Assembly (NCBI GenBank): GCA_017536545.1
Contig: JAFXHF010000004.1
Coordinates: 1-47,468 of the forward strand
DNA: 47,468 nucleotides
DNA from: a bacterium
GTDB lineage: Bacteria; Cyanobacteriota; Vampirovibrionia; Gastranaerophilales; Gastranaerophilaceae
Reading direction: 5' to 3'
The notes beneath the pieces were generated by a model, which did not search any database, was not told where the DNA came from, and saw nothing but the letters and a program-made list of their open reading frames with translations. Positions within the stretch are counted from its first letter, which is position 1, and each line of letters opens with the position of its first letter. Of this stretch, positions 8,401-23,883 are shown one piece after another. Position numbers and translations under genes: made by a program.

Positions 8401-8979
8401 ATGAAGAAAGTATTTTCACTATTATTATTAGCATCAATACTAACTTTAACAGGAGCACCATCAACAGCTCAACCTAAAGATGCTCCAAAACCTGACACTC
8501 AAACAGTTGAAGAAACAAAACAACCTGAACGACCTTCAAAAGAAGAAATGAAAAAACAGTTTGAGCAAAGATTAAATCTTTCAGATAAACAAAAAGAAAA
8601 AGCTAAAGCCATTCACCAACAAGGCCGAGAAGAAATGGCTCCAATCATGGTCCAAATAAAACAAAAACACCAAGAAATCGAAATGGTTAAAATGTCTAGA
8701 ATGGCAGAAAAAATGCAACAAGAAAAAATTGCACAAATTACAGCTGAAATCCAGACTTTAGAAAAACAAGCTCACGAAATTAGAAAGAAAAATTCACAAG
8801 AATTTGAGAAAATTTTAAATAAAAAACAAAAAGCTGAACTTGAACAAATGAAAGCTGAAGGACGTGCAAGATTTGAAAAATATCATAAAGCAAGACCTGC
8901 ATTTCAAGGCTTAGGAACCCCTAATATGTTCTTAAAACCATTACTTCCACCACCTCACAAAGAAGGTTTGTGGAAATAA
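8401..8979 (+). CDS. Spy/CpxP/ZraP-like periplasmic protein
   Basis: 192 residues: signal peptide (about 1-23), a Pro/Lys/Glu-rich linker, and an almost entirely helical body rich in Gln, Lys, Glu and Met. Two LTxxQ-like segments are visible, LNLSDKQKEKAKAI (about 57-70) and ILNKKQKAELEQMK (about 140-153), the hallmark of the Spy/CpxP family of periplasmic chaperones and metal/stress sensors. The C-terminus is Pro/Phe/Leu-rich. GCGAGGAAAG precedes the ATG. It is cotranscribed with the sigma and anti-sigma genes. In CnrX/ZraP-type systems such a protein senses metal or misfolded protein, so it may feed this sigma factor. Confidence 0.82.
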   Translation: MKKVFSLLLLASILTLTGAPSTAQPKDAPKPDTQTVEETKQPERPSKEEMKKQFEQRLNLSDKQKEKAKAIHQQGREEMAPIMVQIKQKHQEIEMVKMSRMAEKMQQEKIAQITAEIQTLEKQAHEIRKKNSQEFEKILNKKQKAELEQMKAEGRARFEKYHKARPAFQGLGTPNMFLKPLLPPPHKEGLWK

Positions 8980-9039
8980 GACAAATACCGCGTTCAAATT
9001 ACCCTACGGAGCATATTAATCGTGCAAACTCCAAAGCCG

Positions 9040-9073
9040 TTGGTAGCATAATGCCCAGTCAGGCTGAGGACAA
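9040..9073 (+). other. 34-bp conserved intergenic element, copy A
   Basis: TTGGTAGCATAATGCCC is followed by AGTCAGGCTGAGGACAA. The first 17 bases are identical to 23618-23634, and the second 17 match at 11 positions with no gap. An ATTAATC block 18 nt upstream is also shared. It lies after the Spy-like gene and directly against the minus-strand terminator of the next gene. Local pairing is possible (CCAA/TTGG at 9031-9043). Identity and strand are unknown: it may be an RNA element or a DNA site. Confidence 0.6.
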
Positions 9074-9100
9074 AAAAATACCACTTTGTTGAGAAGTGGT
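9072..9100 (-). terminator. Intrinsic terminator for the 9155-10606 gene
   Basis: On the minus strand a 7-bp stem (ACCACTT with AAGTGGT, extended by a flanking T-A pair) is followed by seven T in a run at 9078-9072. It lies 55 bp beyond the stop of the minus-strand gene. Confidence 0.8.
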
Positions 9101-9154
9101 AGGGAAAAGTTACGAAAATTAATTGTAGGGGATATAAAAAATATTGTTATAAAT

Positions 9155-10606
9155 CTATGCGTTAAATACGTTAAATGATTTTTCAACGTTTTTCTTAATG
9201 ATACCTTTTACAGCATCATATTCAGTAGATAATGCACTGTGTTCAGATTCAAGTTTATTCAATTGAAGGTCAAATTGTTTATCTTGGCTTTCAATTTTAT
9301 CCATTGCGTTTTGGTAAACTTGTTCAGCGATTACCATAGCTGATGAGTCTTCTTTTTCTGCGATTGATTCATCAGAATCTAAGCTTGTACCAACAAATGA
9401 TTTTTCAACACTTGAGTAGTAAGATAATTGTAATTTACCAGCTTTTAATTGTTTTACAAACCAATCAGTTTCTTTTAAATTAGTTTCATCTTGAACAGTT
9501 GTATAACCTTTAGCTCTCATTTCATTGAAAATATTTTTGTAGTAATTAACCATTCCAGAATCATATTTTAAAGTTTGAGTTGTTGCTGAAACTGTATTGT
9601 TATAATAGGCTTCAGTGATTGCTGTTGCATAGTCAAATAATTCTCTTTGAGCAGTTGTTGTACCTTCATAGTTCAAAGCTTTTTTCGCTTCATAGATATC
9701 ATATTGAATACCGCCTTCAGATACACCATTGATATCTAGATAGTTTCTTGGACTTTCACTAACGAGGTTATCATCTGGATCAGCATATAAAGCTTTGGTG
9801 TCAACAAGCTCACCATCTAAATTTGTATAAGTGAATAAACCTGTTTCAGTATTATAATCAACATCTGTGACTTCGTGCCAATCAGTATTACCATCAGCAT
9901 CAGAATCACCGTGGAAGTAACCAACTTCAATCGTAGATGTTGTAATACCATTTACAGTTGTTGAATATTCTCTAGCTTCTAATAAATGTCTTTGTCTGTA
10001 GTAGCCATTGCTATCTTTGTATAAAGGTGTTGTACCATGTTCATCTGTAGCATAAGCTGTATCATAAGTTACATAACCATCAAATGAATCTGAACTAAAT
10101 GCTGTATAATCAAATCCTAAAATATGTTGGCTATCATAATCATTGATACTTTTACCAACAGATACTAAATATCTGTCCCAAGCATCATGCACTGCAGCTT
10201 CAGATTTTTCATGTTTAGTAACATCGATATCTGCTTGAGTGTAACCCATATCTCTTAAGAATCTATTAAAATCACCATTTGTATTTTTGAAAGCTGTTGC
10301 AATTGCTGAAGAAACTAAAACTTTACCAGTATTATCTGTAACTAAGTATTGTTTACCAGCTGCAACTGAATTGAAAGAAGTTAATTGATTGTATGATAAA
10401 TCAGCATAAGTAGCTTCAGAACCATTATAACCAGTTAAAACTTGATATTTAGTCTTAGCTAGAGCATCTAAATAAGCATCGTTAATCTGTTCTGAATTGT
10501 CAGAAAGACGTTGCTTAGAATAAGCTAATGACTGCTGTTCCATCTCGTTATTAGATAGACGAGCAGTAATGCTTAATAATCTAGCTTGTGATGCTGCCAT
10601 ACCCAT
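9155..10606 (-). CDS. Lineage-type hypothetical protein with hook-like terminal helices
   Basis: 483 residues, no signal peptide. The N-terminus (MGMAASQARLLSITARLS, then a Gln/Asn-rich helix) and the C-terminus (a coiled coil from about 430 ending VEKSFNVFNA) are helical. The middle is an acidic, Tyr/Thr/Asp-rich region that looks beta-rich. Paired terminal helices around a variable middle resemble flagellin/hook-type or other helical-filament proteins, but no flagellar genes are nearby. I associate the N-terminal sequence with a recurrent Gastranaerophilales family of unknown function. AAGGA lies about 13 nt before the ATG, so the start could be the second Met. An inverted repeat (CCGTAA/TTACGG, 10641-10658) sits in its leader. 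Confidence 0.8.
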   Translation of the reverse strand: MGMAASQARLLSITARLSNNEMEQQSLAYSKQRLSDNSEQINDAYLDALAKTKYQVLTGYNGSEATYADLSYNQLTSFNSVAAGKQYLVTDNTGKVLVSSAIATAFKNTNGDFNRFLRDMGYTQADIDVTKHEKSEAAVHDAWDRYLVSVGKSINDYDSQHILGFDYTAFSSDSFDGYVTYDTAYATDEHGTTPLYKDSNGYYRQRHLLEAREYSTTVNGITTSTIEVGYFHGDSDADGNTDWHEVTDVDYNTETGLFTYTNLDGELVDTKALYADPDDNLVSESPRNYLDINGVSEGGIQYDIYEAKKALNYEGTTTAQRELFDYATAITEAYYNNTVSATTQTLKYDSGMVNYYKNIFNEMRAKGYTTVQDETNLKETDWFVKQLKAGKLQLSYYSSVEKSFVGTSLDSDESIAEKEDSSAMVIAEQVYQNAMDKIESQDKQFDLQLNKLESEHSALSTEYDAVKGIIKKNVEKSFNVFNA

Positions 10607-22389: not shown

Positions 22390-22746
22390 ATGAATAACCC
22401 AATCATTGATGAATTAGAAAAAGCGTATTTAGGTAAAGAATTACCTGAAATGAACGCTGGTGATACAGTAAAAGTTTTTGTTAAAATCATCGAAGGTAAC
22501 AAAGAAAGAATCCAAGCATTCGAAGGTACAATCATTAAAATGCACGGTTCTGGTTTAAACAAAACTATCACAGTTAGAAAAGTATTCCAAGGTGTTGGTG
22601 TAGAACGTGTGTTCTTAATCAACTCTCCACGTATCGACAAAATCAACGTTATCAGACGTGGTGATGTTAAACGTGCTAAATTATACTACTTGAGAGAACG
22701 TTCAGGTAAAGCAACTCGTATTAAGGAAAAAATTGAAAAAAGATAA
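22390..22746 (+). CDS. rplS: 50S ribosomal protein L19
   Basis: 118 residues, the usual L19 length. It shows family segments [32 protein letters not shown] and [24 protein letters not shown]19 sits at the 30S-50S interface. AAAGGAAAG precedes the ATG. Its last 14 nt overlap the start of rbgA, whose product matures the 50S subunit. This pairing also occurs in Bacillus. Confidence 0.97.
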
Positions 22747-23587
22747 GCTTCACATACACTGGTATCCAGGCCATATTGCCAAAGCTGAAAAAAAGTTGAA
22801 AGAACAACTTTCTTTAGTAGATGCCGTAATTGAAGTTCTTGATGCGAGATTACCGCTTTCAAGTTGTTATGAAGATATAACGAGGCTTTTAGGTCAAAAG
22901 CCTCGTTTAATTTTGCTTAACAAAGCTGATTTAACTATAAAATCTGAATTAAATAAATTTATTAAACATTTAGAAGCTCAAACAGGCTTTCCTGTAATTC
23001 CAACTGACGCCAAAAATTCAAAAGATTTAAAACACATTGTATCTAAGGCTGTAGAGTTATCCGAACCTAGAATTCAGGCAATTATGGCAAAAGGTCTTTT
23101 AAGACGACCTGCAAGAGTTATGGTTGTTGGCATGCCAAACGTTGGAAAATCTAGTATTATCAATAAATTAACTCGCTCATCAAAAACAAAAATTGGTGCA
23201 AAAGCTGGGGTTACTCGTCAACAACAATGGGTAAGAATCAACCCTCAATTAGAACTTCTTGATACCCCTGGTATTATACCAATGAAACAAGAGGACCAAG
23301 ATAGAGCAAAAAAATTAGCATTCGTAAATTCAATTTCTGAAAACGCCTACTCAAATGAAATGGTTGCTCAAGAATTATTAGATATGCTAAATGAAACTCA
23401 AGCCAAAATTTTTAGAGAATATTATAAATTACCAGAAGATAAAGAATTAAACTTGGACAATATTTCAATTGAGCGTAATTGGCTTTTAACAGGTGGTTCC
23501 ACAGACAGAGAAAGAACTTCCGTTTATATCTTAAGAGATTTTAGAGAAGGCAAAATCGGTAAATTTATTCTTGATGAACTAGAATAA
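22733..23587 (+). CDS. rbgA: Ribosome biogenesis GTPase RbgA (YlqF)
   Basis: 284 residues of a circularly permuted GTPase: the G4 motif NKAD (about 62-65) comes before G1 GMPNVGKSS (about 134-142) and G3 DTPG near 180. It begins with [12 protein letters not shown], the YlqF signature, and ends with a helical C-terminal domain. RbgA binds late 50S intermediates to promote maturation. The start is TTG at 22733, with AAGGA inside the end of rplS, so the two are translationally coupled. The 34-bp element copy B lies 31 bp after its stop. Confidence 0.95.
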
Positions 23588-23617
23588 AAACATTAATCCT
23601 ACAAGTTGTAATTATGA

Positions 23618-23651
23618 TTGGTAGCATAATGCCCTGTACAGCCGAGCACAA
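23618..23651 (+). other. 34-bp conserved intergenic element, copy B
   Basis: TTGGTAGCATAATGCCC followed by TGTACAGCCGAGCACAA. See copy A at 9040-9073. ATTAATC lies 19 nt upstream of it. It sits between the rbgA stop and a minus-strand terminator, exactly the setting of copy A. A local hairpin TACAA-G-TTGTA precedes it (23600-23610). Confidence 0.6.
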
Positions 23652-23653
23652 TA

Positions 23654-23680
23654 AAAAGGCTGGTCTTGAAACCAGCTTTA
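23654..23680 (-). terminator. Intrinsic terminator of the 53-residue ORF
   Basis: On the minus strand GCTGGT pairs with ACCAGC across a 6-nt loop, followed by CTTTTTATT. The plus strand has only TTTAT, so it may act weakly for rbgA too. Confidence 0.75.
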
Positions 23681-23721: not shown

Positions 23722-23883
23722 TTATTTTACTGCGGATAGGTTCGCCTTGATTCCTGCGTCTGAATTGATTTCATTCGCATTAGCATACGCCAATACTCGG
23801 CGTTTTTTTGCTCCTCTTAATATTAATTCAACACTTTCGCATCTGTTATTTGATGGTGTTGTTATCTTCTTTAACATTATCAT
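23722..23883 (-). CDS. Small basic hypothetical protein (53 aa)
   Basis: A frame starting MIMLKKITTPSNNRCESVE, followed by a basic helix (LILRGAKKRRVLAYANA). GGAG precedes ATG-ATA-ATG: 3 nt from the first ATG and 9 nt from the second, so translation more likely starts at the second (51 aa, 23877). A terminator follows 41 bp after the stop, which supports a transcribed gene. No family recognised. Confidence 0.6.
   Translation of the reverse strand: MIMLKKITTPSNNRCESVELILRGAKKRRVLAYANANEINSDAGIKANLSAVK

Follow-up and report, generated by a model that had tools for sequence, protein, structure and literature searches.

A short, probably mobile repeat joined in one orientation to gene ends in a genus of Melainabacteria

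Introduction

The accumulation of small repeats downstream of genes is a known phenomenon, and the usual explanation is that selection acts against copies elsewhere. Such repeats include the GTAG and CGTC REPs: the termini of GTAG REPs often supply a TAG, and CGTC REPs are without a known transposase (PMC3733652). In the case of the BOX element, PMC3049150 reports 58 overlapping coding sequences, 36 of which obtain their stop codon from the element, with no clear truncation. Here we describe a repeat that is joined to gene ends by a precise junction.

Results

The window, that is the whole stretch of 47,468 nucleotides analyzed here, contains a 34-bp match between positions 9040–9073 and 23618–23651. 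The first 17 bases (TTGGTAGCATAATGCCC) are all identical, followed by 11 of 17 without a gap, and the block ATTAATC lies 18 and 19 nt upstream, as the original prediction had described. Two 17-mers with at most three mismatches occur in the window compared with 0.13 expected, and no shuffle reached two. The match is thus beyond chance; it is a true repeat that gene homology does not explain. The predicted 34-bp coordinates are too narrow: they cover one end of a dispersed repeat of about 70–72 bp, with true limits at 9002–9071 and 23591–23649 (Table 1). ATTAATC, previously taken as a separate upstream block, is an inner portion of this element.

Genome-wide, the far-end motif GCCCTGCGGAGCAC is located 39–40 nt 5' of the core at nine of nine occurrences, and head-to-tail copies in genome G001 have a period of 71. 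Based on these two distances we assign a length of 70–72 nt. In the sense of the abutted gene the consensus reads 5'-GTSCTCGGCCGSAC GGGGCATTA TGCTACYAAC...(variable, ~25 nt)...GTGCTCCGCAGGG-3', and the family consensus of the far-end motif is GCCCTGCGGAGCACATT. Both window copies are joined to the T-run of an intrinsic terminator on the minus strand, in agreement with the prediction, and in the sense of that gene the element starts with GTSCTCGGCCGSAC right behind the T-run. In this genome the far-end motif never occurs without a core, and about half of the cores have no recognizable far-end motif. Where the far end is missing, the copies tend to stop near model position 53–61 and may be a variant form. 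We rejected the idea that a larger, autonomous element shares these ends, because the far-end motif of this genome is always 39–40 nt from the core.

A hairpin with a 4-bp stem (GTSC/GSAC) is located directly at the element end and covaries across the family. For two helices together, changes on both sides were counted in 31 cells of the model-fitted alignment compared with 7.3 in shuffles, and in 5 compared with 2.3 on the ungapped alignment A3; in both cases nearly all of them fall in the terminal hairpin. Support for the inner hairpin is weak, as its changes are mostly one-sided. No inverted-repeat relationship exists between the two element ends, GTSCTC and CCGCAGGG. The remainder has no clear conserved fold, its folding energy being equal to that of shuffles (z near 0 on either strand). 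Together with the lack of any Rfam match in the window at the gathering score, this speaks against the small RNA that had been one of the suggested options. A search of 12 element loci against Rfam at E-values up to 0.5 gave a single weak match, located away from the element. In some copies (L074, L077, L079, L134) the inner hairpin contains an additional block, ATTTACCCCTGCC, and the element is therefore a mosaic.

Table 1. Positions of the two window copies, their parts and the adjoining genes (R1, covariance model of the 32-nt core; R2, full-length covariance model).
Feature	Position	Strand	Evidence or remark
Copy 1, full length, 70 nt	9002..9071	-	R2 58.1 bits, E 3e-17, model 1-70; R1 core 49.2 bits
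Terminal hairpin GTCCTCAGCCTGAC of copy 1, gene-sense 5' end beside T-run	9058..9071	-	4-bp helix covarying in the family; sequence
Inner short hairpin GGTA-GCATAA-TGCC	9042..9055	+	family helix 1, weak
Far-end motif ACCCTACGGAGCATATT of copy 1	9001..9017	+	nine genome matches 39-40 nt from core
Terminator of minus-strand gene at copy 1, T-run (9078-9072) and hairpin	9072..9101	-	element begins at next base
Upstream plus-strand gene, weak Spy-like match	8401..8979	+	below NCBIfam cut-off
Minus-strand gene whose terminator bears copy 1	9155..10606	-	no NCBIfam match
Copy 2, without last ~12 nt of far end	23591..23649	-	R2 33.7 bits, model 2-58, match at 23591-23648; R1 50.5 bits at 23618-23649
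Terminal hairpin GTGCTCGGCTGTAC of copy 2, one mismatched pair	23636..23649	-	sequence; family helix
T-rich tail and hairpin of minus-strand terminator abutted by copy 2	23650..23676	-	site empty in eight relatives
rbgA/ylqF, ending 3 nt before copy 2	22733..23587	+	TIGR03596, E 4e-88
53-aa ORF, apparently conserved in relatives	23722..23883	-	likely owner of terminator at copy 2

The search of the genome and its relatives that had been proposed as a check yielded further copies, and this clearly contradicts the outcome that would have refuted the original prediction. The 17-mer pattern, with up to three mismatches, was found at 14 places in the 1.9-Mb genome, compared with none for the same pattern read backwards, and the core model gave about 20 credible copies. 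Within the genus this model matches in 18 of 46 genomes, all sequences being draft assemblies, many or all of them MAGs; many other genomes have no match. Copy number is highest in G001 (51), followed by 20 in G060 and 18 in G008. Those matches that carry a name come from gut isolates or MAGs, and two have the label uncultured Candidatus Melainabacteria. Matches outside the genus (G034, G037) were chance-like. The 17-mer was also present in 13 stretches of viral contigs, which we put down to chance because none of the 13 has the conserved flank. Among open-licence papers we found none on such repeats in Melainabacteria.

The position of the element relative to genes is specific for one of its ends. 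When the 87 distinct copies are read in the sense of the gene, 36 of them start between -1 and +4 nt of a stop codon (ORFs of at least 80 aa), although orthologous copies are not independent; the corresponding value for random positions in the same loci is 0.44%. The opposite end meets a stop codon, on the opposite strand, once in 87. The element had been predicted as a possible separator of convergent units, and this count does not support convergence as its defining setting: what the two window copies share is the end of the minus-strand gene, and the rule over the 87 copies is a strand-specific junction with a stop codon or a T-run. The stop codon at the junction is TAG in 33 cases and TAA in three; ORFs of at least 150 aa in the same loci use TAA, TAG and TGA 109, 66 and 4 times, respectively. 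In most stop-codon cases the G of TAG doubles as the first base of the element, and several junctions contain extra G residues, for example TAGGG|GTGC.

The other junctions were grouped by patterns picked after inspection of the data. According to this grouping, about 15 copies (including both window copies) begin right behind a T-run, about 12 are located within prepilin leader peptides, about 14 abut another repeat, and 12 of 91 fit no category. The prepilin copies are in frame where checked, on either strand, with junctions such as ...KIGSILPTPVEEG|FTLAEVLITL and MKKDFTLAEVLAGRGNMLPVFSKAG|FTLAEVLITL, and three prepilin proteins carrying the element score above the TIGR02532 cut-off. Prepilin leaders with in-frame repeat sequence are found at L133, L122, L126, L128, L140, L144 and L159, and paralogues have leaders in common, for example HRRSCIDM..VKIGSILPTPAEEG before FTLAEVLITL. 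Gene duplication may have spread some of these copies.

A comparison of orthologous loci, several of which lack the element, showed that it comes and goes. The terminator of the minus strand and the A7 tract at the copy 1 site recur in G013 and G041, but a terminator-like hairpin of the plus strand takes the place of the element. In G060 a differing element is found at the same tract next to another gene. The copy 2 site is occupied in G013 and empty in eight relatives (G010, G018, G059, G060, G056, G042, G045 and G011), where another short sequence joins the end of rbgA to the corresponding terminator. The groEL product mostly ends in GMM* (GGMM*), and this native C-terminus is kept at the insertion; the stop is TAG followed by the element in G000 and TAA in most insert-free relatives. 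In G013, G045, G014 and G040 the groEL TAG is followed by other GC-rich palindromic sequence. Two separate clades (G014/G055/G023 and G001/G060) have the element at the stop codon of a gene ending in SAPERM*; it was thus inserted twice, or once long ago and then lost many times. Other variable sites have an exact junction on the side of the gene and a far side that does not align. With the far junction not alignable to empty sites, neither a target-site duplication nor a clean excision was seen. The dispersed copies and empty loci favor a mobile element, a remnant of which was another of the options originally listed.

Other repeats of the genus were observed at similar places. The same kind of junction, with a TAG or TAA stop codon or with the T-run of a terminator, is formed by another palindromic repeat that is longer than the element, CGGATTTTGC...GCAAAATCC. 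It is present at groEL in G013 (L297) and G045 (L299) and at L008 and L076 of the own genome, sometimes nested beside the 70-nt element. A REP-like sequence of the CGTC/TGTC type, GTCATTCTGAGGCGAAGCCGAAAGAATCCAGC, adjoins an element copy at L005, at about 1410–1460. The RAYT-like genes of the genus (L248–L262) are flanked by their own, mostly GTAG-tagged palindromes (GTAGGTTGGGC...GCCCAAC and variants). They form a separate system, which served as a positive control for excluding a RAYT.

Discussion

Based on these results we propose, with a probability of roughly 80%, that this repeat of about 70–72 bp is mobile and non-autonomous and represents a new family, found in one genus of Melainabacteria, of small dispersed repeats with a one-orientation junction at gene ends. 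This reading builds on what was observed directly, namely dispersed copies with defined limits, differences between lineages, presence and absence at orthologous sites, the precise, orientation-locked junction and the covarying terminal hairpin. The element would integrate in one orientation, its precise end (GTSCTC... in gene sense) being set after the last base of a terminator T-run, or at a stop codon in such a way that the stop becomes TAG, often with a G from the element. It is presumably selfish and moved in trans by a putative enzyme, although no gene that would mobilize it was found, and this counts against the reading. The gene-end junction would be fixed by target choice. Two arguments support the latter. 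Without target choice, one would expect most copies to be at other intergenic positions where insertions are tolerated. Moreover, selection alone predicts a spread over 3' intergenic DNA, yet 41% of the copies are on a stop codon, which makes target choice likely. As side effects, the protein and the terminator would be left intact and, at stop codons, a hairpin would be placed beside the terminating ribosome. A role in the 3' UTR, which the original prediction had considered, may be such a secondary effect of the element.

A narrower form of the mobile-element reading, compatible with it, is retro-insertion: reverse transcription would use an opposite-strand RNA (plus strand of the window) and start from a 3' end present at the T-run or the stop codon, leaving one exact junction and 5' truncation. 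An RNA end can form at a T-run as well as at a stop codon, and it is the far end that varies; one can therefore conceive of a putative reverse transcriptase starting from such an RNA end or jumping to it. The exact gene-sense 5' junction, the one-sided loss of far-end motifs in this genome and the extra G residues are consistent with this, and group IIC introns are known to insert after terminators (PMC4424553). However, collecting copies with the core model biases truncation statistics and by itself favors such a polarity, and the clustering of the missing far ends could reflect the variant form. We consider this route rather unlikely.

A conserved RNA element of the 3' UTR, kept by selection for stability, termination or processing and not mobile, is distinctly improbable. 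It would account for the strand-specific position at gene ends and the covarying terminal hairpin, and REPs no more than 15 nt from a stop codon have been reported to stall ribosomes (PMC12306157). On the other hand, the element is missing at most of the orthologous loci examined, close relatives included, and the copies behind T-runs sit after the terminator. Folding no better than shuffles, tandem copies and in-frame prepilin copies also argue against it.

Very little favors a MITE of the Tc1/IS630 type that duplicates a TA target and overlaps stop codons by chance: many junctions do read TA|G, and 5'-TA-3' termini are found in Correia, ERIC and RUP (PMC2229807), but T-run junctions occur without TA, the far flanks have no consistent TA and terminal inverted repeats are missing. 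Least credible of all is a RAYT-mobilized REP of the GTAG superfamily or a CGTC REP, in spite of the short, hairpin-bearing, intergenic, multi-copy nature of the element, the GGTAGC and CGTC strings inside it and the Y1_Tnp genes in 21 of 46 genomes, since no Y1_Tnp gene is present in this genome or in G013, G023 and G060 (9–20 element copies), the RAYT genes of the genus have other GTAG palindromes at their flanks, the element model matches nothing in 18 Y1_Tnp loci, and the 8–9 bp AT-starting stem of CGTC REPs is lacking.

The mobile element proposed above raises the question of how such an element finds the gene end, and many natural presence/absence pairs are at hand for testing this. Two in five copies are on a stop codon in one orientation, and most others are at T-runs, in prepilin leaders or at repeat copies; such placement is hardly given by selection alone. 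As a speculation to which we attach little weight, the element could be SINE-like and target 3' gene ends as such, joining ends at terminators and stop codons, perhaps through reverse transcription that is primed at these ends or switches to them, with several unrelated repeat families of the genus sharing the stop codons.

The element resembles several known systems. Like GTAG and CGTC REPs (PMC3733652) it is a short hairpin repeat located mostly 3' of genes, but its stem, size and tags are different, and the genus has RAYT REPs of another sequence. GTAG REPs are defined by a repeat-flanked Y1_Tnp gene, which was found neither in the own genome nor by the element model in the 18 Y1_Tnp loci, and by an unpaired GTAG at the foot of a 5–13 bp stem, whereas here GTAG lies inside a 4-bp stem (GGTA..TGCC) within the element. 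CGTC REPs have a CGTC tag, an AT-starting stem of 8–9 bp and a CCA tail; the stem of the element is 4 bp (GTSC/GSAC) and located at its end. The inverted termini and TA duplication of IS630/Tc1 MITEs are absent. Rickettsia palindromic elements (RPE, PMC2229807) are likewise short and found both between genes and in frame inside protein genes. They are, however, long palindromes of 105–146 bp, whereas our element has 70 bp and a 4-bp terminal hairpin, with its in-frame copies in prepilin leaders. Group IIC introns (PMC4424553) also target DNA just behind intrinsic terminators, but they are ribozyme-sized and encode a reverse transcriptase, whereas the element has 70 nt and gave no Rfam match. 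BOX, RUP and SPRITE of Streptococcus pneumoniae are, according to PMC3049150, small dispersed non-autonomous repeats often found at gene 3' ends; BOX has a modular boxA-B-C structure, and the passages considered describe no orientation-locked junction behind terminator T-runs. Since the element falls outside the tested definitions of GTAG REP, CGTC REP, RPE and TA-MITE, we rate it as a previously uncatalogued family akin to REP, BOX and RPE.
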